Virus record (IMG/VR): IMGVR_UViG_3300007735_000652
Coordinates: 1 to 34,432 of that record
Source: a virus
Length of the DNA stretch: 34,432 nucleotides
Reading direction: 5' to 3' (one strand)
In this document: piece after piece, positions 577 to 33,815 of the stretch
Layout of the letters: each line of letters begins with the position of its first letter
How positions within the stretch are numbered: the stretch's first letter is position 1
Made by a program: the position numbers and the translations under genes
Notes under the pieces: model-generated
Database searches by the model: none
The model's input: the letters and a program-made list of their open reading frames with translations, nothing else
Told to the model about the DNA's origin: nothing

Positions 577-3500
577 TTAGTTAGCAAAGTTTTGACCGAC
601 AACCACTCCATAAAGTCCTGCACTGGTAATATTGCTACCATCAAAGGTCTTGAAACTGTAAATATCAGAACGACTTGCTGTTGGAGTTACAATTGGAAGA
701 ACACCACCACCAGGCCAATAAACAGGAATTGCTGTTCCAACAGAATTCTTAAAGGTATCAATTCCAACTGAATAACCAGTAGAACCTTGAGAAATCTTAA
801 GTGTAAATGATGTGGATTCTGCCGGGGGATTTAATAGTGTAAATGATATAACTGCTTCTGTAGGAGTAAATGTAAATGTTTGTGCCTTAGAAAGATCAAT
901 TGTCACAACACCAGAAGAACTTGTGACTGCCTCCACTGCCTCAGAGTATGATTTAAATCTTACAGAACCTTCAATATCAAGTTTTGCTCTTGGTACTGTA
1001 GTTCCGATACCAACTAATGATCCGGTACTTGTAGTAATAGCAGTTCCACCTGTTCCAATAGAAAGTGTGGTTGCAGTAATAATACCGGCACGAATATTAC
1101 TTGAGGTATTATCTAATCGGAATGATGTGGAAGTCAACATTCCACCGACAATCACATCTTGTGTCGTGGTAAATCCTGCAAAGATTGCCTTACCATTTAC
1201 ATAAAGTGATGTTGATGAGGTTCCAACTGCTCCAAGTTCCAAATTAAATCTTGGAACAGAAGTACCAATACCAATATTATTCAGATTTGTATTATAAAGT
1301 CCCCCTGTAATATTAGTCCAACCTGCAGCAGAAATATTTAAATTTGACAACAAACTTCCATCACCGGAGAAATAATTTGCATAGCAAGTTCCGATAATAT
1401 TTGTATTACCATTTACCTGTAACTTATATGAACCAGAGGTAGTTCCAATTCCAACACCAGTACCATTTACAGAGAATAGTGATGAACCTGAACCAACAAC
1501 AAGGGATGATGTTCCTGCTGATGTAGTTGCAATTCCGACACGATCAAAAATCATATGATTTTCGGTCGGAGAAAGACTAATGTTTCCGAAACGATACCAA
1601 CCATTCTCAAGAGTATAAACCCAACCAACATAACCACCTTTAGATGGATCAGAGAAATAAGTTATATCACCAGGATTTCCTGAAATGGATGGTTGACTTA
1701 TTCCGACAGTATACTTACGAGAGACTGTTGAATCTCCTTGTAGAAAGAGTGATGATGCCTCAATACCCTTACTTGAGTTTGATGTAATTTTGTTATTAAA
1801 AATAACTGGACCATCAAATTGTGAAATGAGTGTTGAGTCAGTTCCACCTTCCACACGAATTGAACGAGAGACTGAAATTTCAAGAGGAGTAAGTGCATCA
1901 AATCCTACACTCACACCAGATAGAACATCTTCACCGGTTATAGTTGGAACTGGAGAATCAAATACTTGCTCTTGACCTGTTGCAGAATTGACTTTCTTAT
2001 TTCCGACATAGAATGCACCCTTATCATTCATTCCTGTGAAGACATTAATACCACCATCAAGTTTTGTTGATGTTGCCAATAGTTCTTCCTGATCACTTAG
2101 TTGACGATCCTGACGATCTGGGAATGCAGTAGAATAATTACCAGGACCAAATCCAAGATACTCAAAGGTATGTCCAGATGCACGAATGATTGAATTTCTT
2201 CTGAATTCAATTGGTCTCAAACGAATTCTACGAACAACAGATCCGGAAGAATGAGTTGTTGCATCGGTTCCGTAAATACCCCTAAAGACACTAACAGGAT
2301 TTCCTGTTACGGTCTGATTTACTCTCACAATTTCAGTATCAATTAGTAAATAATCACCAATTTCTAAATTTAGATTTGTAACATTTGTGATATTAATTGA
2401 TGATGATATGGCATCGGTAATTGCTCCTGATAATGTCGTTGTAATTCCAGCATACTGAGTAACCAATCTTCCAGAAATATTTTCATTATCTGCGGTTACT
2501 GCACCACCCTGAGCAACAAATCCTCTAATAAAAACTCTCTTTGTTCCAGTAGTCGCAGGTGAAGTTGTTCCGATTCCAATATAGGTTTCAAATTGAGTCA
2601 GACTATTGATCTTGCGGACAATAAAATCTGAATTATAAATTGAACTTGTTGAACCACCCACAGTAAATTTATTTCCAATCAATAATCCGTGATTTTGAGT
2701 TGTTGTAACAGTACCAATACCAGAAGAATAATCATATGTGAGAGCACTTATGTCAATTGATTTGCCCGCATTAATCGCATTCGCATAAGTAGTTGCAGTC
2801 ACACCCAATCCGGTTGTGAGTGGAGGAGATATCGCAGATGCAGATTCTACATTAATTTCTTTTGGTTTACCTGTAGTAATACCAGTAATTCTATAGACAG
2901 TATTATATCCTTCAACTGATGCAGGAACAACACCGGCAACAGTCAGACATTCTCCAGTTGCATCATAAACACCACTAACAGTAACAACTGCCTGTGAATA
3001 TCCGGTTGTTGTTGCAACTCCTACAATGGCAAGAGTATTTCCAATACCATATGCACTACCACCATCAATAATTTTAACAGCAGTAATATTACCAGAGGAA
3101 TTGAAGGTAATTCTTGCGGTTGCGTGAGATCCTGTTGTAGATGTACCAATACCAACTAATCGTGCATTATAAAGATTTCCCGAAGTTCCACTACCATATC
3201 CGGCACCGGCATTAGTGACACTAACTGTCGTAATACGATTGAACCCGTGATCAATCTTGGTATAGAGTGTATGTGCTGTTCCTACAGAATTGGAAATAAT
3301 ATTTGTTAGTCCAATACCAACACCAAAATCAATCAGACCTTTTCCAAGACTTTCTTTTGTAATACTATTCTGTGGATCATCAATCACCACTTGCCCGATA
3401 GGATCCGAAAGTGCATAACATACTGCTGCTCTTGGATCTGAATTCGGATTATCACGATTTATTTGTGGATAAAAATTCTGAATTGGTTGTGAGAATCTTT

Positions 3501-6414
3501 GATTTGTAAATGGACTTACCGATGGACTATTTGAAGAATTTACCACCAATAAGTGATACACCCCATCCTGAACTCCAGGTACATATTTTGCAATTTCCTG
3601 AGATCTATAGACGGATAGGGTTTCTTTCAGTTTTCTCTTTACAAATCTTGGCAGAGATGTTGTTCTACTTGAAGTATTACTTTGGAATGTTCCTGGATTA
3701 GTGGTCAGTCCAACCGTAAATTGTTTGAGACTTGAGATACCAACAACAGCATAACCCCTATTATATCCAGACCCGTATGTTCCAGAGGTATTTGTAGAAC
3801 TCTGTACATTGTAAATATCTACTTGACTTCCAATTGATAAATCGTGAGGAATTTCTGTGTCAAAATATGCGTATGTACCATCCCAAGTTGAATTTGCAAT
3901 AATTCTAAAATTTCTTAATTGATTTTCATTACTCAATGTTGCCGATGTAGGACTATAAGGTGCAGCAACTTCTGTATCAGTAATTCCTATTGTAGAACTG
4001 GATTCCTGAATCACATATCCATCTAATGGTGGTCTTGCAGTTGCGATACCCGAAGAAGATGGAATTACATAACGAATTCTATAGATAGTATCTAATACAT
4101 TTCGGTTATCTACTTTTCTTAAAATATAGGATCTTGGCGTAACCGCACCAAGACTAGTTGATCCGAGACCAACAATTGTAGAATATAAATTATTTTCGGT
4201 AGAAGCAGAAGATACATTAATATACCAATTACTTTGAGAAGTGTCATATTGAATTGGATGCCCAATATCACCAGATATTTTATCAATGACTCTACTTTCA
4301 ATTGTTAAGATACCACCAGAATTATTAATTGCAATTGAACTTGAATTTGCGGCATCATTTAAAGTTTTTGCAATCTTAATTTGATCCGTACCAACTCCAG
4401 AAGTAATTGCATAGTAAACAGTATTTGGCAATAAACCATCTGGTAAATTCGCAGTATAACTCTTCACACGAATTGACTCACCATTTATAAAACTATGTGG
4501 TTGAGTAAATGATAGTGTATTGGAAGTAATGCTATTAATTCCTGTTGCGGACTGATTTACCTGAAAAGATTTGACCGCAGAAGTATTTGCAGTATTTGGC
4601 ATTACAATTTTTGCCGAATACTGACTGGATGATCCAGAGTTTGAAATTAATACATTTAGGGTATCATTTGTTTTTGCACCTATTCGGAAACCTTCAATTA
4701 CATTATTTGGTGGAGATCCTAAATTTGTTTCATTATAAAGATATAGTCTACTGGTACTTGCAACACCTACAGTTTTTGCAACATCAACACCAACAAACTC
4801 AATTGAATTTTCTAATGTTTCAAGTTCTCTTGGTGGAATGATGTGAGTAATATACCCAACATCATCTCTTGAAAATGCTTGTCTCTTAAATCCAGAAGCA
4901 ACTAATGACTTTGCACCGAAGTTTGAGTTGGAGTTATTGATGGATTGATCTCCACCAACATCTGTTGAAAAATGTTGTGCATAACCAATCGCAAAGATAG
5001 AAACATTCTGAATATATGCATCATTAATTGTTTTGATATGAAAGTTTGTATATGATGGTTTATAAATTGCTCTTGAATTATTACTAATTGTTTCATTTCC
5101 GGCAACAGTACTGTCGGTATATTGACCACTGTTTGAATTATATAAAACAAATGCACTATCATCTTTTTGCAAACTAATGCCAGTAAATTGGGCAAGAACC
5201 ATAGATTTAAATCCGGTTGCCTTGTCACCATCTGCAAGAACACCACACATACCATAAACAGATCTCAGTGATATGTTGAAGATATATGGTGATGCAGATG
5301 AGACAGTATCAGAACTTAAACTTAATGTTGCACCAGCAGGATTTGGTAGAGCATCTACGGGTGAATTCTGAACCTTATATGTAATCTGAGTACTACTCAA
5401 CTTTGTGCTAACAACAAATTGACCATTATATCCCGATGCAGAAATTCCTTGAACACGGAATGCGGTGTCTACATCTAAACCATCAACCTCCGAATTGGTA
5501 GTAACAGTAATTGTCGTTGTTGGTGTAATACCATTACCAGATTTGATGCTTGTAATGCCTACAGAACCACCAGTTGGTCCTACAATACGATATTCGTCAA
5601 TTTTAGCCTGAATATCAATGGATGAAGATGGATAATCGGGTTCAATTGCACGACCAGATGATTGACCATATGCAAGACCAACTTTCTCATAATACATATC
5701 CAAATCAGTACGATCTGTTGAATATGATAGGAAAGTATCATTAATATTTACACTGTTTACACCATCAACATACTCAAAACACGATAGTTTGTGATGAGAA
5801 AAGTTTGGAACAAATAGATTGCTTGTGTAATCAATATAGCACTGTCCATTTGGATCGGCATCAAACAAAGAAAACTGCCAAAAGTAACATCCACCAGTAA
5901 TTCTAAAGATTGTTGATCTTTCAATATTATTATTGGTTGGATTTGGAACATACTTCGGACGAAGTTTTGTTTTTCTCAAATCCATACCAACAATTGAAGT
6001 TCCACGAGGAACAATCACACCACCGTAAATACTATTCAGTTTATAAAGTTGATTATCTGCAGTAGTGACATCAAAGTTTGTTGTTAAATCAAATGGAGGA
6101 AAATTATTTGAATTTGATCCATTTCTTAAAAGGTAATTATTTGAACCGTCAGGAATCCATCCCGGACGATTATCTACAACGTGATCACCAGGATAAAGAA
6201 GAATGGTGGTCTTACCGAATCTATCGTTATTCAGACCTCTCTGATATGAAAATCTTGCTGATTCAATAAGAGCACGTTGCAGAGTGCGAAATGGGCGAAC
6301 CAAACTTGAACCAGTATTTTCAATACTATCAGTAGCATCAAGACTATTAGGATCCACGTAGAGTATCGTCCCACGTACGGATTTCAAAAAATTATCTAAT
6401 CTTGAAAGACCCAT
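577..6414 (-). CDS. Very large fibre-like virion structural protein (1945 aa)
   Basis: This is the largest gene in the window. The N-terminus (about residues 15-110) has the pattern ILYVDPNSLDATDSIENTG...RPFRTLQRALIEA, which matches the opening of right-handed beta-helix (pectin-lyase-like) proteins and is familiar from large structural proteins of marine T4-like phages. The middle is Ser/Thr/Gly/Asn-rich, with many short beta-type repeats. The last 400 residues contain several VGIGTT/VGIGTS-type motifs followed by KLxVxG, typical of trimeric phage fibre shafts. The end (SDIYSFKTFDGSNITSAGLYG) looks like a small fibre-tip domain. No S74 peptidase/chaperone domain is apparent. It is likely a tail-fibre or baseplate-attached component. 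A late promoter lies about 30 bases upstream. The exact T4 counterpart (gp10-like, gp12/34-37-like) cannot be decided by eye. Confidence 0.85.
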   Translation of the reverse strand: MGLSRLDNFLKSVRGTILYVDPNSLDATDSIENTGSSLVRPFRTLQRALIESARFSYQRGLNNDRFGKTTILLYPGDHVVDNRPGWIPDGSNNYLLRNGSNSNNFPPFDLTTNFDVTTADNQLYKLNSIYGGVIVPRGTSIVGMDLRKTKLRPKYVPNPTNNNIERSTIFRITGGCYFWQFSLFDADPNGQCYIDYTSNLFVPNFSHHKLSCFEYVDGVNSVNINDTFLSYSTDRTDLDMYYEKVGLAYGQSSGRAIEPDYPSSSIDIQAKIDEYRIVGPTGGSVGITSIKSGNGITPTTTITVTTNSEVDGLDVDTAFRVQGISASGYNGQFVVSTKLSSTQITYKVQNSPVDALPNPAGATLSLSSDTVSSASPYIFNISLRSVYGMCGVLADGDKATGFKSMVLAQFTGISLQKDDSAFVLYNSNSGQYTDSTVAGNETISNNSRAIYKPSYTNFHIKTINDAYIQNVSIFAIGYAQHFSTDVGGDQSINNSNSNFGAKSLVASGFKRQAFSRDDVGYITHIIPPRELETLENSIEFVGVDVAKTVGVASTSRLYLYNETNLGSPPNNVIEGFRIGAKTNDTLNVLISNSGSSSQYSAKIVMPNTANTSAVKSFQVNQSATGINSITSNTLSFTQPHSFINGESIRVKSYTANLPDGLLPNTVYYAITSGVGTDQIKIAKTLNDAANSSSIAINNSGGILTIESRVIDKISGDIGHPIQYDTSQSNWYINVSSASTENNLYSTIVGLGSTSLGAVTPRSYILRKVDNRNVLDTIYRIRYVIPSSSGIATARPPLDGYVIQESSSTIGITDTEVAAPYSPTSATLSNENQLRNFRIIANSTWDGTYAYFDTEIPHDLSIGSQVDIYNVQSSTNTSGTYGSGYNRGYAVVGISSLKQFTVGLTTNPGTFQSNTSSRTTSLPRFVKRKLKETLSVYRSQEIAKYVPGVQDGVYHLLVVNSSNSPSVSPFTNQRFSQPIQNFYPQINRDNPNSDPRAAVCYALSDPIGQVVIDDPQNSITKESLGKGLIDFGVGIGLTNIISNSVGTAHTLYTKIDHGFNRITTVSVTNAGAGYGSGTSGNLYNARLVGIGTSTTGSHATARITFNSSGNITAVKIIDGGSAYGIGNTLAIVGVATTTGYSQAVVTVSGVYDATGECLTVAGVVPASVEGYNTVYRITGITTGKPKEINVESASAISPPLTTGLGVTATTYANAINAGKSIDISALTYDYSSGIGTVTTTQNHGLLIGNKFTVGGSTSSIYNSDFIVRKINSLTQFETYIGIGTTSPATTGTKRVFIRGFVAQGGAVTADNENISGRLVTQYAGITTTLSGAITDAISSSINITNVTNLNLEIGDYLLIDTEIVRVNQTVTGNPVSVFRGIYGTDATTHSSGSVVRRIRLRPIEFRRNSIIRASGHTFEYLGFGPGNYSTAFPDRQDRQLSDQEELLATSTKLDGGINVFTGMNDKGAFYVGNKKVNSATGQEQVFDSPVPTITGEDVLSGVSVGFDALTPLEISVSRSIRVEGGTDSTLISQFDGPVIFNNKITSNSSKGIEASSLFLQGDSTVSRKYTVGISQPSISGNPGDITYFSDPSKGGYVGWVYTLENGWYRFGNISLSPTENHMIFDRVGIATTSAGTSSLVVGSGSSLFSVNGTGVGIGTTSGSYKLQVNGNTNIIGTCYANYFSGDGSLLSNLNISAAGWTNITGGLYNTNLNNIGIGTSVPRFNLELGAVGTSSTSLYVNGKAIFAGFTTTQDVIVGGMLTSTSFRLDNTSSNIRAGIITATTLSIGTGGTAITTSTGSLVGIGTTVPRAKLDIEGSVRFKSYSEAVEAVTSSSGVVTIDLSKAQTFTFTPTEAVISFTLLNPPAESTSFTLKISQGSTGYSVGIDTFKNSVGTAIPVYWPGGGVLPIVTPTASRSDIYSFKTFDGSNITSAGLYGVVVGQNFAN

Positions 6415-6443: not shown

Positions 6444-6451
6444 TATTTATC
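6444..6451 (-). promoter_or_regulatory. T4-type late promoter (GATAAATA)
   Basis: The minus strand reads GATAAATA, one base from the T4 late consensus TATAAATA. It lies about 30 bases upstream of the 1945-residue gene and just after the terminator of the preceding 60-residue gene, so it gives that large gene its own late start. Confidence 0.6.
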
Positions 6452-6453
6452 AT

Positions 6454-6486
6454 AAAAAATGGGAGACTGCACAAGCAATCCCCCAT
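6454..6486 (-). terminator. Rho-independent terminator after the 60-aa gene
   Basis: On the minus strand ATGGGGGATTGC pairs with GCAGTCTCCCAT across a TTGT loop, giving a 12-bp stem with two G-T wobbles, followed directly by a run of T. The hairpin covers 6459-6486 and the T run corresponds to 6454-6459. The opposite strand has no T run, so it acts on minus-strand transcripts. It lies 22 bases beyond the stop of the 60-residue gene. Confidence 0.85.
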
Positions 6487-6508
6487 AACAATTCCTTCAG
6501 GTATAAAC

Positions 6509-6691
6509 TTAAAGTGGATTTGCATACGAAAGAGTGTCTTCGTCCAATGTTTTACGAACAAATTGCAATACGTTCATAAATTGTTCAATACTATCACATA
6601 CAACTTTCTTTTCTGAACCACCGTGAGAATAAAGATACACTGTTCGCCTCAAAGGATCCACCACGCAACGGGAAAGGTAGTCATCGTTCAT
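6509..6691 (-). CDS. Small conserved-looking protein of unknown function (60 aa)
   Basis: A 60-residue protein starting MNDDYLSRCVVDPLRRTVYLYS, with an apparent beta-hairpin followed by a helix (DSIEQFMNVLQFVRKTL) and an acidic end. It has no signal peptide, no membrane segment and no recognisable enzyme motif; its two cysteines do not form a zinc pattern. The sequence has the look of small ORFs common in marine T4-like phages, but I cannot name a family. The setting is unusual: a consensus host-type promoter precedes it and a strong terminator follows it, so it forms a single-gene transcription unit inside a late structural region. Early expression as a small host-directed protein is a reasonable inference, with no direct evidence of function. 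Confidence 0.8.
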   Translation of the reverse strand: MNDDYLSRCVVDPLRRTVYLYSHGGSEKKVVCDSIEQFMNVLQFVRKTLDEDTLSYANPL

Positions 6692-6717
6692 TTGAGTCTT
6701 TTCGTGATAGTCTATGT

Positions 6718-6746
6718 ATTATAGGGTAAAATTGAAGATTTGTCAA
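6718..6746 (-). promoter_or_regulatory. Consensus sigma70 promoter (TTGACA-17-TATAAT)
   Basis: The minus strand carries TTGACA at 6741-6746 and TATAAT at 6718-6723, separated by exactly 17 bases: a full match to the bacterial vegetative promoter. The -35 box contains the TGA stop codon of the upstream 285-residue gene. Transcription would begin near 6711, about 20 bases before the start of the 60-residue gene, so the promoter serves that gene alone, with the terminator at 6459-6486 closing the unit. Confidence 0.85.
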
Positions 6747-7600
6747 GGGTTTGCTGCTTCATAATCCACGATGACACTTTGATTTGTTTCCATAGAATTA
6801 ATTGCACTGGTAACATCTGATAACTGTCCATCATATACATTGATTGATTGTGCATCATACCAACGATCTATTTGTGCATTTGTTTTTGGCCCTTTTAGGG
6901 CATTGATTCCAGAAAGCATTGTGTTTACTTCTGCTCTCAATAAATTAATCTCATTCGTAATTGAGGTGATAGAAGAAAGAGTTCCAGTGCAGGATCCTCC
7001 GGAAGCAGTTAGATAATAAGTTCCAATGCTAGATGCAGATCCTGCATTTATACCATTTGGATCAAAAATATCAGTATATAAAACTGTGGATACTCCAATT
7101 CCAAGATTTGAAGAAGTTATCTTTTGATATGTTGCTCCATCGGAATAAAAAGTTGAAGATGTATCATTATTTTCAAGTGAAGGATACACATATCCATAGA
7201 TACTATCTTCCACTATCAGTCCCGTTGCAATTACAGAACAAGTATCTCTATCTGTTGGACTTGAGCAATCATAATATGTGGTTGTCTTTGAAGATCCTAC
7301 AACAACATCAGAAGAGAAACTGGTTGAGGTTCCAATACCACATCCACCACCACCATTCTTATATTGTATAAAGTTATTCTTGGTTATTGCTGCAATTTCT
7401 GATTTTTTATTATTAATGATTTGCAGTTTTCCCAAAACAACATTGTCTAATGCTGCTGCAGGAACAACATATGCAGCAACTATGGTAGTTCCGGTTCCGA
7501 CATTTGTTTGACTATTTTCCTTTGCCTGATTTAATCTTTGCTGTGTTCCGGTTAAATCAGTATATACATATTGCGACTTAGGACTATCGGTAAAAATCAT
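6743..7600 (-). CDS. Predicted virion structural protein (285 aa)
   Basis: A 285-residue protein whose first half is Ser/Thr/Gly-rich (for example GGGGCGIGTSTSF) and whose last quarter is helical (TSITNEINLLRAEVNTMLSGINAL). It has four cysteines between about residues 87 and 205 and no catalytic motif. It is the last gene of a minus-strand run of structural genes and its start overlaps the stop of the 230-residue gene by four bases (ATGA), which suggests translational coupling. The GIGTS-type motif recurs in the fibre protein encoded downstream, consistent with a role in a fibre or its attachment. I recognise no named family; the structural call rests on composition and context. Confidence 0.7.
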   Translation of the reverse strand: MIFTDSPKSQYVYTDLTGTQQRLNQAKENSQTNVGTGTTIVAAYVVPAAALDNVVLGKLQIINNKKSEIAAITKNNFIQYKNGGGGCGIGTSTSFSSDVVVGSSKTTTYYDCSSPTDRDTCSVIATGLIVEDSIYGYVYPSLENNDTSSTFYSDGATYQKITSSNLGIGVSTVLYTDIFDPNGINAGSASSIGTYYLTASGGSCTGTLSSITSITNEINLLRAEVNTMLSGINALKGPKTNAQIDRWYDAQSINVYDGQLSDVTSAINSMETNQSVIVDYEAANP

Positions 7601-14769: not shown

Positions 14770-14777
14770 TATTTATT
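14770..14777 (-). promoter_or_regulatory. T4-type late promoter (AATAAATA)
   Basis: The minus strand reads AATAAATA, overlapping the stop codon of the gp5 gene and lying 42 bases upstream of the 1656-residue gene. It differs from TATAAATA at one base. Confidence 0.5.
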
Positions 14778-27885: not shown

Positions 27886-28554
27886 ATGGCATCATATTTC
27901 CGTCAGGTTCCAAACTTTGATTACGTCAGTAGATTACCAGATGCTAAAATATCAGATTATATCTCTGTAAAAAACCTTTTTAAAAAAGGAAAACTCAGAG
28001 ATGATATTTTTCAGGATTTATCATTTTTTGAGAAATATAAAGTTATCGGTGATGAAAGACCTGATAATGTTGCATTTAAGGTCTATGATGATCCAACTCT
28101 AGATTGGGTAGTATTGCTCTCAAATAATATTATCAATATTCAAACAGAATGGCCATTGACTCAAAGTTCCTTTGATACTCATTTACTATCCAAGTATGGT
28201 GATTATGATACTCTCTACAATGGAATTCATCATTATAAGACTGCAGAGGTATTAAACAGTCAAGGAGTAACAATGGTTGCTGCTGGACTTGAAGTTTCAT
28301 CACCATATTCCGTAAGTTTTTATGATTACTTTGTCGGATATCAAGTTGACAGTGGAAATATTGCAGTACCAGTCACAAATTATGAATATGAAAATGAAAT
28401 AGAAGATAATAAAAGAAATATTTACGTTCTCAAACCATTCTATCTCAATATTGCAATAAATGATATGGGAGATATTATGCCCTACCAGCAGGGATCATCA
28501 CAGTATGTTAATGAGAATTTAGTTCGTGGTGATAATATTAGACTTTACTCTTAA
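27886..28554 (+). CDS. gp53: Baseplate wedge protein gp53
   Basis: A 222-residue protein with the gp53 signature FEKYKVIGDERPDNVAFKVY followed by DDPTLDWVVLLSNNI (about 49-83), matching the T4 region in which RPEELAFKIYG precedes YWVLLMCNDI. T4 gp53 (196 aa) joins the wedges around the hub. The extra length is in the C-terminal half. It begins one base after the gp48 stop. Its TAA stop lies in a TTAA palindrome that also supplies the stop of the convergent homing endonuclease gene, giving a four-base overlap. I see no terminator for this plus-strand operon. Confidence 0.9.
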   Translation: MASYFRQVPNFDYVSRLPDAKISDYISVKNLFKKGKLRDDIFQDLSFFEKYKVIGDERPDNVAFKVYDDPTLDWVVLLSNNIINIQTEWPLTQSSFDTHLLSKYGDYDTLYNGIHHYKTAEVLNSQGVTMVAAGLEVSSPYSVSFYDYFVGYQVDSGNIAVPVTNYEYENEIEDNKRNIYVLKPFYLNIAINDMGDIMPYQQGSSQYVNENLVRGDNIRLYS

Positions 28555-29168
28555 TTGTATTTTTTATTCCAAGGAACTCTTCCTTTAGTTGCCTCACTAA
28601 TTTTTCTTCGGGTTTCTTCGGAATGTTTTTTTCCTGGTTTTCCTTTCCTCTCCTGTTGAATTTTTTTGAGTCTTTCCAAACCTTCTTTGGTTTGTCTTGA
28701 TTTTCCTCTATTCGATTCTCCTATTTTTCTTTTGTGTTCTTCAGATAAAACTCTTCCTTTAAATTTTTTACTTATTTTTTCTTTTGCTTCTTCAGATTGT
28801 TTTCTTCCTTTACATACATCACTTAATTTTTTTCTTTGTTCCTCACTCATTTCCTTTCCTTTGTTATGAGGAATAGCACCTTTTCTACTAAAACCAGTAG
28901 AAGTTTGATATGCTCTATTAGCAAAATGTAGATTTTCTACTACTTTATAATAATGCTGCAAAATAATTTCATCAACATATGCTTCTTCTCTTGTAGCATA
29001 ATCACTTTTGAGTATTATTTTTTGAGTTGGTTTGAATTCTTTATTCTTAAAGGACCCGAAATACTTTACATCTTCTTCAGGTAAACATCTACAAGTTCTT
29101 GAACCAATATATCCCATTCCCCATTCTTCATAAGAATAATAGACATAGTGGTACTCTATGAATTCCAT
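28551..29168 (-). CDS. GIY-YIG-type homing endonuclease with NUMOD3 repeats (205 aa)
   Basis: The N-terminal domain has YHYVYYSYEEWGMGYIGSR (residues 6-24), a divergent GIY...YIG pair. A YFGSFKNKEF segment follows, and REEAYVDEIIL contributes the likely catalytic Glu. From about residue 95 the protein is a series of Lys-rich repeats of the NUMOD3 type (MSEEQRKKLSDVCKGRKQ, LSEEHKRKIGESNRGKS, HSEETRRKISEATKGRV), which contact DNA in homing enzymes. It is a free-standing gene inserted between the terminator of gp32 and gp53, on the gp32 strand, with its own TATAAATA late promoter about 30 bases upstream. Typical action is cutting the homologous locus in competing phages and spreading the gene by repair. 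The target is unknown. Confidence 0.85.
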   Translation of the reverse strand: MEFIEYHYVYYSYEEWGMGYIGSRTCRCLPEEDVKYFGSFKNKEFKPTQKIILKSDYATREEAYVDEIILQHYYKVVENLHFANRAYQTSTGFSRKGAIPHNKGKEMSEEQRKKLSDVCKGRKQSEEAKEKISKKFKGRVLSEEHKRKIGESNRGKSRQTKEGLERLKKIQQERKGKPGKKHSEETRRKISEATKGRVPWNKKYN

Positions 29169-31595: not shown

Positions 31596-32268
31596 TCTTT
31601 GTCCCAGCGTTGTGATGTACAAATTCTTTAATATAACGAACCAATAACTTAATATAATAGTCTTTGTTTCTTTTGTCAAATACCTTTACTTCTCCTCCAG
31701 GAGTGACCATAATAGTGATTAACTTAACTGGAGCAATTTTAGTAAGTTCAAAGTACGCAGCAGCATAGAATGTTTCCTGAACGAAGTAGTTTTCCAACCA
31801 CTCTTCGGGTTTAATCTTTTCGGATGTCTTAAAGTCTATAACGGCAAGTTCTCCATCATATTCTCCAATACAATCGGCTCTACCTGCGAGTCCTAAGTAT
31901 TCTGAATAAAGAGTTCTTTCAATTGCATGAATATTATTTATCTTATCAAGATAAGGCTTTGCGTGAAAGAACATAAACTTTGAGAGAGGTTGATAATCGT
32001 CCCAGTTTAGTTCCTTATTTTCCAAATAGTCCTGACAGACCTGGTGAAAATCAGTTCCTCGTGCGGTTGCTCTTTTTGTAATCCGATTTGCTTCTTCGAG
32101 TCCTATACGTTTTCTCCACTTAACAAAAATCTCACGATTATAGAAAGAAGTCACAGAAGTAATTGATGGTACCCACTGACCATCAGGAAGATGATACAGA
32201 CGAATACCATTTGTTTCTTTCTTTTCTAGTTCAAGATCACCTAAAAAATTATGATGAATAAATGTCAC
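31585..32268 (-). CDS. RecB/Cas4-like PD-(D/E)XK exonuclease (227 aa)
   Basis: The protein has the RecB-like nuclease signature: a helix with His75 (GTDFHQVCQDYL), Asp132 in LAGRADCIG, then Asp145-Phe-Lys147 in ELAVIDFKTSEK, which supply the metal-binding Asp residues and catalytic Lys. A QETFYAAAYFEL helix follows, as in the RecB family QhxxY motif. Cyanophages carry similar proteins annotated as exonuclease, presumably acting in DNA recombination, repair or host DNA degradation. The start codon is GTG at 32268, whose first base is the last base of the preceding endonuclease stop (TAGTG). It heads the operon exonuclease-gp33-gp59-DUF1825 from an early promoter located inside the 3' end of that endonuclease gene. 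Confidence 0.85.
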   Translation of the reverse strand: MTFIHHNFLGDLELEKKETNGIRLYHLPDGQWVPSITSVTSFYNREIFVKWRKRIGLEEANRITKRATARGTDFHQVCQDYLENKELNWDDYQPLSKFMFFHAKPYLDKINNIHAIERTLYSEYLGLAGRADCIGEYDGELAVIDFKTSEKIKPEEWLENYFVQETFYAAAYFELTKIAPVKLITIMVTPGGEVKVFDKRNKDYYIKLLVRYIKEFVHHNAGTKNGE

Positions 32269-32993
32269 TATGTTCTCACTCTACCTTTATTATAGCACAT
32301 AGGTATAGATTCGTCAATTGTTATAAGTTTTTCTTCAGTACCATTATTAATCCAAATTCTTTTTGGACGATTTTTTGCTTTTTGTTTTAATTTTTCAATA
32401 GTTTCTGGAGAATGCTTTTTTCCATACATAGGATTGTTTTCTCCATTTACATCGTGGTGATTTTCACTTATTTTTTTTCTAGTTTCTTTACTAGCAACTC
32501 TACCAAGATTTAATTGTCGTAATCTTTCAATAGTTTCTGGACTGAGTTTCCTACCAATTAACCAAGGTTTAAATTTTCCTTTAGATGCCTCACTCATCTT
32601 TTTTTTGGTTTCATCAGTATGCTTTTTACCATACATACCAACTTTTTTCTCTTTATGAAGTTGTTTAACTCTTTCAGAGCATTCTTTTCGATATTCTTCG
32701 GTCGCTTCCCAACCAAAAATTCCATCACCACCATCAGTTATATTATAACCATAAGGAACTTTACTATTATACTCCATAATATAATACTGTTCCAATTCGT
32801 ATGCTCTTCCAGCAGTATCAACTTCTTCAATCAATTCAATAGAAAACTTATCCTCACCATATTTTTTGATTGCTTCAGTTAGAAGAAATCCCCTTTTGGT
32901 ATGTTGATAAAATCTTTCAGTAATGGAAAATTTGGTTATTCCGACATACTGTTTTTTATTTTCAAGATTGGTAATTAAGTAAATATTATACAT
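32268..32993 (-). CDS. GIY-YIG homing endonuclease with NUMOD3 repeats (241 aa)
   Basis: The N-terminal GIY-YIG domain reads YNIYLITNLENKKQYVGIT (residues 2-20), followed by Arg27 in SITERFYQH and Glu68 in YELEQYYIMEYN, which correspond to the catalytic Arg27 and Glu75 of I-TevI. GYNITDGGDG closes the domain. Residues about 115-215 hold repeated NUMOD3-type DNA-binding motifs (GMYGKKHTDETKKKMSEASK, SPETIERLRQL, NPMYGKKHSPETIEKLKQ). The end (IWINNG...IPMCYNKGR) matches a C-terminal element common in phage homing enzymes. It is a free-standing gene between phoH and the exonuclease, with a TATAAATA late promoter about 26 bases upstream. Its last 50 bases contain the early promoter of the exonuclease operon. 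Confidence 0.9.
   Translation of the reverse strand: MYNIYLITNLENKKQYVGITKFSITERFYQHTKRGFLLTEAIKKYGEDKFSIELIEEVDTAGRAYELEQYYIMEYNSKVPYGYNITDGGDGIFGWEATEEYRKECSERVKQLHKEKKVGMYGKKHTDETKKKMSEASKGKFKPWLIGRKLSPETIERLRQLNLGRVASKETRKKISENHHDVNGENNPMYGKKHSPETIEKLKQKAKNRPKRIWINNGTEEKLITIDESIPMCYNKGRVRT
32289..32317 (-). promoter_or_regulatory. Sigma70-type promoter inside the homing endonuclease gene (TTGACG-17-TATAAT)
   Basis: The minus strand has TTGACG at 32312-32317 and TATAAT at 32289-32294 with a 17-base spacer, eleven of twelve consensus bases. It lies within the coding 3' end of the endonuclease; TATAAT is the Tyr-Asn codon pair of the conserved CYNKGR end. It is placed about 20 bases upstream of the exonuclease GTG start and should drive the replication operon early. 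Confidence 0.8.
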
Positions 32994-33059: not shown

Positions 33060-33815
33060 TTACAATCCAAGTGCGTGTTGAGCAATTAGAAACTCCTTAA
33101 CTAACCCCGAGCGAATCACATCATCAATACCAAATTCAATTATATCAACAGAAGGCATCGTTCTCAAAATTTTCATAAAATCAATTACACCATTTTTTTC
33201 ATTTGTTTTAATTAAATCTGATTGAGTGGCATCACCACAGAACATAATTTTAGAGTTTTCCCCAACACGAGTTATTATAGAACATAATTCGTGGAAATTT
33301 GCGTTCTGGAATTCATCTACAATCACAATTGAATTATCAAGAGTTGTTCCTCTTAAGAATGAGGTGCTCCAGAACTTAATCGTTTCCTGAGACTTAAGAT
33401 TACCATAGAGCATCTCAAACTCGGCATCAGAAGGCATCTGGAACATATACTTCACCATATTCTTATAAGGAATCTGGTAGATGTCTGATTTGTCCTCATA
33501 AGAACCAGGAAGAAATCCAATCTCTCTGGTGGCAACTAAAGAACGAACCAAATAGATTTTCTCATAAGGAGTTCTTTCATCAAGAACTTCACGAAGAGCA
33601 TTATAAAGAGTAATGAATGTTTTACCGGTTCCTGCACATCCATAGGCAACTACATGTTTACCTTCGGCATATGCATCAAAAAGTTTTCTTTGATTGTCTG
33701 TTAAGGGTTCAATATCTAATAGATATTCATTTCCAAGTGCTTTTTTTCTTTTTGGTTGGCGACCTACAAGATCTGTGCCGGTTTGTTGTTCATTTGCTCT
33801 TTTTCTTCTTGCCAT
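33060..33815 (-). CDS. phoH: PhoH-like ATPase
   Basis: A 251-residue P-loop protein. The Walker A motif GCAGTGKT spans residues 59-66, the Walker B region is SIVIVDEFQNA, and a sensor-like MFCGDATQSD and GVIDFMKIL follow, the typical PhoH order. A basic, probably flexible N-terminus (about 28 residues, RRKRANEQQ, QPKRKKA) precedes the ATPase domain. PhoH-like genes are widespread in marine phages; they belong to the phosphate-stress regulon in E. coli, but an RNA-related role has also been proposed, and the phage function is unsettled. It lies nine bases after the 80-residue gene and is probably read from the late promoters upstream. No pho-box-like element was apparent. Confidence 0.92.
   Translation of the reverse strand: MARRKRANEQQTGTDLVGRQPKRKKALGNEYLLDIEPLTDNQRKLFDAYAEGKHVVAYGCAGTGKTFITLYNALREVLDERTPYEKIYLVRSLVATREIGFLPGSYEDKSDIYQIPYKNMVKYMFQMPSDAEFEMLYGNLKSQETIKFWSTSFLRGTTLDNSIVIVDEFQNANFHELCSIITRVGENSKIMFCGDATQSDLIKTNEKNGVIDFMKILRTMPSVDIIEFGIDDVIRSGLVKEFLIAQHALGL

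Follow-up and report, generated by a model that had tools for sequence, protein, structure and literature searches.

Locus and flanking genes

The window, by which we mean the whole stretch of 34,432 nucleotides analysed here, is a fragment of a T4-like cyanophage genome encoding PhoH, gp32, a helicase loader, an exonuclease, a gp5-type hub/lysozyme, baseplate genes and a tail fiber. It has nearly no similarity to isolates at the DNA level. Between the gp5/hub block and the tail fiber gene the following features are found, given here in the direction of transcription:

6743..7600, minus strand: 285-aa gene, left-hand flank and last gene of the late gp5/hub block
6718..6746, minus strand: sigma-70 (host-type) promoter TTGACA-17-TATAAT, 12/12 matches
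6692..6711, minus strand: putative short 5' leader, from the information content in relatives and the window sequence
6509..6691, minus strand: 60-aa gene of T4-GC 29 / PF23966 (DUF7294) / phrog_662, hereafter GC29, assigned by Pfam, PHROG and synteny
6489..6500, minus strand: CTGAAGGAATTG, match to a pre-terminator motif by similarity to the conserved GTGTGAAGGAAGTGCG
6454..6486, minus strand: intrinsic terminator, a 12-bp hairpin with a T-run, from folding and the equivalent place in relatives
6444..6451, minus strand: GATAAATA, a late promoter of the NATAAATA type that serves the tail fiber gene and adjoins the terminator
577..6414, minus strand: tail fiber gene (phrog_529, E 0), right-hand flank of the island

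An earlier note on this DNA had described a 12/12 sigma70 promoter, a 60-codon gene and a 12-bp hairpin with T-run, all of which we recovered on the minus strand. The virion genes with late promoters that it placed on both sides were also found, as the phrog_529 fiber gene is preceded by GATAAATA and a late promoter at 14776 heads the block upstream of GC29 (the hub operon). That first reading had not remarked on the late promoter abutting the terminator or on the conservation of both ends across cyanophages. The 285-aa gene (7600-6743) gave no match in PHROG, and a weak relative of it is present in locus L011 (29% over 230 aa). A structural RNA or tRNA at the locus was ruled out, since the window has no Rfam match at the gathering threshold and contains no tRNA.

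GC29 is a conserved cyanophage gene

Membership of the gene product in DUF7294 follows from its syntenic position before the fiber gene and from a Pfam match over the whole domain (69.5 bits against a cutoff of 27; residues 1-59 on positions 2-64 of the 66-position profile); the phrog_662 match has an E value of 9e-17. The open reading frame is coding, with differences from its relatives mostly at third codon positions. The gene is annotated as T4-GC 29 at the same place in S-SM2, P-SSM2, P-HM2 and P-HM1. T4-GC 341 of S-SM1 is a divergent form of it, which Syn9 gp21 joins by similarity. The window gene shares family, locus and orientation, upstream of the fiber, with T4-GC 29 / GC 341, whose products are 60-70 aa long. 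Using four different queries, tblastn found GC29 in 44, 80, 42 and 279 phage records; the sets overlap, and every record comes from Synechococcus or Prochlorococcus phages, cyanophages or marine single-cell viruses. Moreover, more than 570 IMG/VR stretches encode it. Bacterial genome contigs gave three matches, all from metagenome-assembled genomes. In S-BM3 (locus L125) the gene is present at 3001-3165 and unannotated; the record lists only the adjoining tRNA-Gly.

The AlphaFold model of GC29 is a compact b-b-b-a-b fold (pLDDT 87.8). In a viral structure library, confident matches were restricted to cyanophage proteins resembling its own family (E 7e-6 to 7e-5). The best Foldseek match in the PDB, a periplasmic domain of FtsH (E 0.04, TM 0.51), and a ribosomal protein of the large subunit found with VIA-align in the PDB (Z 6.1) both fell short of supporting homology. 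A search with PADLOC gave no match, and comparison with PDB sequences gave no meaningful one.

The promoter and leader of GC29

The -35 box TTGACA (6746-6741) and the -10 box TATAAT (6723-6718) lie 17 nt apart on the minus strand, and the TGA stop codon that ends the 285-aa gene overlaps the -35 box, as the earlier note had stated. This is the sole 12/12 site in the 34 kb window, where 0.075 perfect promoters are expected under a first-order model that covers both strands and spacings of 16-18. The 125 loci in our sample represent 110 distinct upstream sequences, and 104 of these carry a promoter with at least 10/12 matches, compared with 3.5% of random positions in the same loci. Nearly all of these promoters are located at -48 to -56 from the ATG. 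Since the spacers between the hexamers are different in 97 of the 104 promoter-bearing relatives, the hexamers are held by selection and not by recent descent. The separate control of the gene that had been proposed is in agreement with these results, as a host-type promoter of its own inside a late-promoter region is a conserved property of the locus.

GC29 has the sigma-70-type promoter upstream that is expected of an early cyanophage gene. Each of twelve cyanophage records (genomes or large contigs) contains 1-10 perfect (12/12) promoters, almost always in coding orientation, and in S-SM2 a host-type promoter with 11/12 matches lies upstream of the late sigma factor gene gp55. Both observations are consistent with a pre-late class of promoters. 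Sites of the sigma-70 type with 11/12 matches also occur in the replication-gene part of the window at 33167, 32317, 31679 and 30297 (minus strand), the last of them shortly upstream of gp32.

In most relatives the leader carries TATAAT-N5-GGTAATCA, of which the window has a degenerate version (GACTATCA); no evident Shine-Dalgarno sequence was found in the window leader (6692..6711). Aligned on the -10 box, GGTAATCA occupies +6 to +13 with 1.3-1.7 bits per position, more than at the two weakest -10 positions. We considered it as a Shine-Dalgarno sequence and rejected this, since it resembles the extended anti-SD complement but is too distant from the ATG and has a conserved mismatch. The pattern TATAAT-N5-GGTARTCA recurs at a small number of further host-type promoters in S-SM1, S-H25, S-SKS1 and S-SRM01, and one such site precedes a peptidase gene adjoining gp46. 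Allowing at most one mismatch, it is present at about 6% of promoter-bearing genes other than GC29 compared with 0.4% of random positions, and promoters of this kind are possibly a co-regulated set. Copies around the expected start lie at 123071 and 160479 in S-SM1, at 127472 and 159442 in S-H25 and at 78869 and 84209 in S-SRM01.

The terminator and the late promoter of the fiber gene

The hairpin at 6486-6459 has 12 pairs and a folding energy of -19.3 kcal/mol (z -5.2 against shuffles), and is followed by T's. Two bases past the T-run and about 36 nt upstream of the fiber ATG lies GATAAATA, which is of the type NATAAATA, the published consensus of cyanophage late promoters (PMC2984593). In relatives the fiber late promoter lies roughly 37 to 40 nt upstream of the fiber start codon, with an exact ATAAATA in 59 of the 73 distinct loci in which the fiber start could be found. 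A terminator-like hairpin ending just before this promoter is present in 52 of these 73 loci, compared with 1.4% of random windows, and the mean folding energy at the pre-fiber site is -16.5 kcal/mol compared with -9.5 kcal/mol in the control. Directly 3' of GC29, a terminator-like hairpin was found among 125 loci in the window only and, weakly, in locus L101; at the other loci the next gene usually follows close behind GC29 and at times overlaps it. The terminator belongs to the locus and not to GC29.

These results bear on the view that promoter, gene and terminator form one cassette. In relatives as much as 3 kb, with tRNAs and other genes, can separate GC29 from the terminator, so that promoter and terminator are not inseparably paired with the gene.

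In relatives we identified, at the downstream end of islands with cargo and immediately ahead of the terminator, the noncoding motif GTGTGAAGGAAGTGCG. With at most two mismatches it occurs in 13 of 65 loci, in nearly every case 88 to 92 nt upstream of the fiber ATG, compared with 1.3% in the control. The window has its match CTGAAGGAATTG at -86 from the fiber ATG, only about eight bases after the GC29 stop codon. Cargo-bearing loci conserve GTGTGAAGGAAGTGCG within the stretch -92 to -75 relative to the fiber ATG, although their hairpins vary in sequence.

Variable cargo between GC29 and the fiber gene

In the annotated isolates that were viewed, the gene order is hub, GC29, variable genes and fiber, with the fiber beyond the stretch shown in several of them. 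The distance from GC29 to the fiber ranges from 227 to 3084 nt. In most relatives GC29 is followed by cargo genes and tRNAs, whereas the terminator is next in the window; relatives have 0.6-2.9 kb of tRNAs and small genes in this place, and cargo is present in 64 of the 73 islands. The 269 cargo ORFs of the 73 loci fall into 30 protein families, 16 of which are singletons. Most loci carry tRNA-Leu(UAA) and tRNA-Thr(UGU); the remaining cargo comprises rarer genes and a handful of small families that recur. Among isolates, it includes genes for ACP, cpeT and a 2OG-Fe(II) oxygenase, and several longer cargo ORFs are possible HNH endonucleases as judged by eye. Within the islands there are also some NATAAATA-like sites (0.29 per kb), so that parts of them may be late-transcribed too.

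Cargo islands have a promoter (at least 9/12) in 63 of 64 cases and a terminator in 52 of 64. The sole exception regarding the promoter is S-B43, where the start codon that was scored lies downstream of the annotated one. Of the nine cargo-free islands, five have a promoter and one has a terminator. Fisher's test gives p 5e-4 for the promoter and 7e-5 for the terminator, and treats the loci as unrelated although they are phylogenetically non-independent and one clade (L017, L019-L022) makes up five of the nine cargo-free islands. The promoter was lost in the cargo-free loci L017, L021, P-SSM2 and P-TIM68, and the window is the only one of the nine that keeps both promoter and terminator.

In cargo-bearing loci we also observed a conserved noncoding element after GC29, which reads approximately ATTTTTGGNSGAAAAAAATTCCSGCAAAAATTT and then TTACTTTTTT before the next ATG (L025:7184-7290, L001:6184-6260 and about 30 other loci). 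One more copy of this element is found elsewhere in S-SM2 (190749) and in Bellamy (177).

A proposed bounded early unit in the late region

We propose, with a probability of roughly 0.78, that T4-like cyanophages share a conserved early unit with defined ends, placed within their late region, and that the window locus represents its cargo-free form. In Kyanoviridae and kin this unit would occupy the interval from the gp5/baseplate-hub genes to the tail fiber gene, with promoter and GC29 as its fixed head and terminator and late promoter as its fixed tail. The strong host-type promoter would start a transcript whose first gene is always GC29. In most phages this transcript would run on through small genes, tRNAs, metabolic genes or possible HNH endonucleases and end at the intrinsic terminator directly before the fiber's own late promoter. 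With the terminator in this position, pre-late transcripts of the unit would not extend into the fiber gene. In the window, host RNA polymerase with the housekeeping sigma factor would start at about 6711, read GC29 and, given efficient termination, stop at the hairpin; later, gp55-type late transcription from GATAAATA would make the fiber. Early or pre-late transcription of GC29 by host RNA polymerase is likely, because its own host-type promoter lies in a late-promoter region and is under selection. Moreover, early or middle timing by the unmodified polymerase is suggested by the type of promoter and by what has been published on promoters of cyanophages (PMC2984593). GC29 is likely to be covered by late read-through as well: no terminator separates it from the upstream late genes, so transcripts of the hub operon (14776) may run into it.

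The lack of a terminator upstream of GC29 would also suit a late GC29 that is expressed from the late operon preceding it, with a relic promoter whose sigma-70 match no longer matters here, and the loss of the promoter in some cargo-free relatives, such as the four named above, is in line with this. However, drift would have eroded the control elements as in those relatives, whereas the window keeps a 12/12 promoter, a 17-nt spacer and an intact terminator, and we regard a relic as improbable. Even less credible is that GC29 is a true moron, which would have come in from outside together with its promoter and terminator and lodged between two late genes; the earlier note had spoken of a moron-type cargo gene or of a gene moved in with its own control. 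In the window promoter, gene and terminator do lie together within 290 nt, but the terminator follows GC29 directly only there, one weak further candidate aside, and the gene is found at the same place throughout T4-like cyanophages. No close relative was seen that has the flanks but lacks GC29, among loci collected by GC29 itself. The base composition is not foreign either, with 38.3% G+C in the ORF, 35.4% and 36.4% in the flanks and 35.0% in the window. Near-universal presence and native G+C led us to reject a moron or a recent insertion.

It could also be asked whether the unit works as proposed but the window never had cargo, which other lineages then gained. Cargo-free loci do exist in several lineages (the L017 clade, P-SSM2, P-TIM68 and the window). 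The others, however, have no terminator and often no promoter, the pre-terminator motif of the window is common to cargo-bearing islands, and locus L002, the closest relative by fiber (85%) and GC29 (77%), carries about 1.7 kb of cargo. An ancestral cargo-free state is therefore unlikely in our view. A deletion of cargo in the window lineage is the most likely course, if not a proven one, because the pre-terminator motif stands directly after GC29 and L002 has cargo; this call rests on a short motif and one close relative.

With an early unit bounded in this way, newly arrived cargo in the interval from GC29 to the fiber would be read early, and its transcription would end short of the late fiber gene. 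More tentatively, and with rather less than even confidence, we suggest that the gap between gp5 and the fiber is a standing expression slot and at the same time that the start region TATAAT-N5-GGTAATCA marks co-regulated phage genes. Any gene or tRNA landing in such a slot would be expressed early, with fiber expression undisturbed. The natural cargo-free versions of the unit are now available for comparison. As for GC29 itself, its strong pre-late promoter, cyanophage-wide conservation and small size would fit a host-directed early role, and our guess is that it acts inside the host early in infection. This near-universal and strongly promoted 60-aa protein is thereby singled out as a candidate host-takeover factor.

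Likeness to known systems

Lambdoid morons have their own promoter, gene and terminator between structural genes. The window cassette resembles them in this arrangement, and the window gene has both a promoter and a terminator of that kind. Unlike them, GC29 is a conserved gene of a phage group, with no sporadic presence across T4-like cyanophage lineages (rare absences could be missed by GC29-based sampling), and the terminator is that of the locus.

A PeSL (promoter-early stem-loop) consists of a terminator stem-loop immediately upstream of an early promoter. Such elements of T4-like phages, as cited in PMC4503421, are similar to the island in that composite junctions of stem-loop and promoter bracket variable modules. 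In the island, in contrast, the stem-loop at the right end is joined to a late promoter, and the early promoter at the left end is not preceded by a stem-loop; no terminator-like site was found immediately upstream of the promoter at 6746.

The variable region corresponds to a hot spot already known in cyanophages, which Sullivan et al. 2010 (PMC3037559) list as (i), 'near gp5 with tRNAs'. It occupies the same place between gp5/hub and fiber, with variable small genes and tRNAs in relatives. Position and variable content agree with our data, namely 30 cargo families in 73 loci and the same flanks in the window. The window copy differs in that it has neither tRNAs nor cargo, the terminator being directly after GC29. 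Fixed boundaries of promoter and terminator with GC29 as head gene are absent from the hot spot description as far as it is available to us (PMC3037559). A known but loosely defined hot spot would thus gain sharp boundaries and an expression logic.

Two further observations concern other parts of the window. Two predicted homing endonuclease genes (phrog_314) are located at 28551-29168 and 32268-32993 (minus strand), beside gp32 and the exonuclease gene. Besides, the same hairpin TTGAGGTTTTATACCTCAG occurs twice in the gene of a 1656-aa virion protein (11437-11419 and 13549-13531, minus strand), which suggests an internal repeat.
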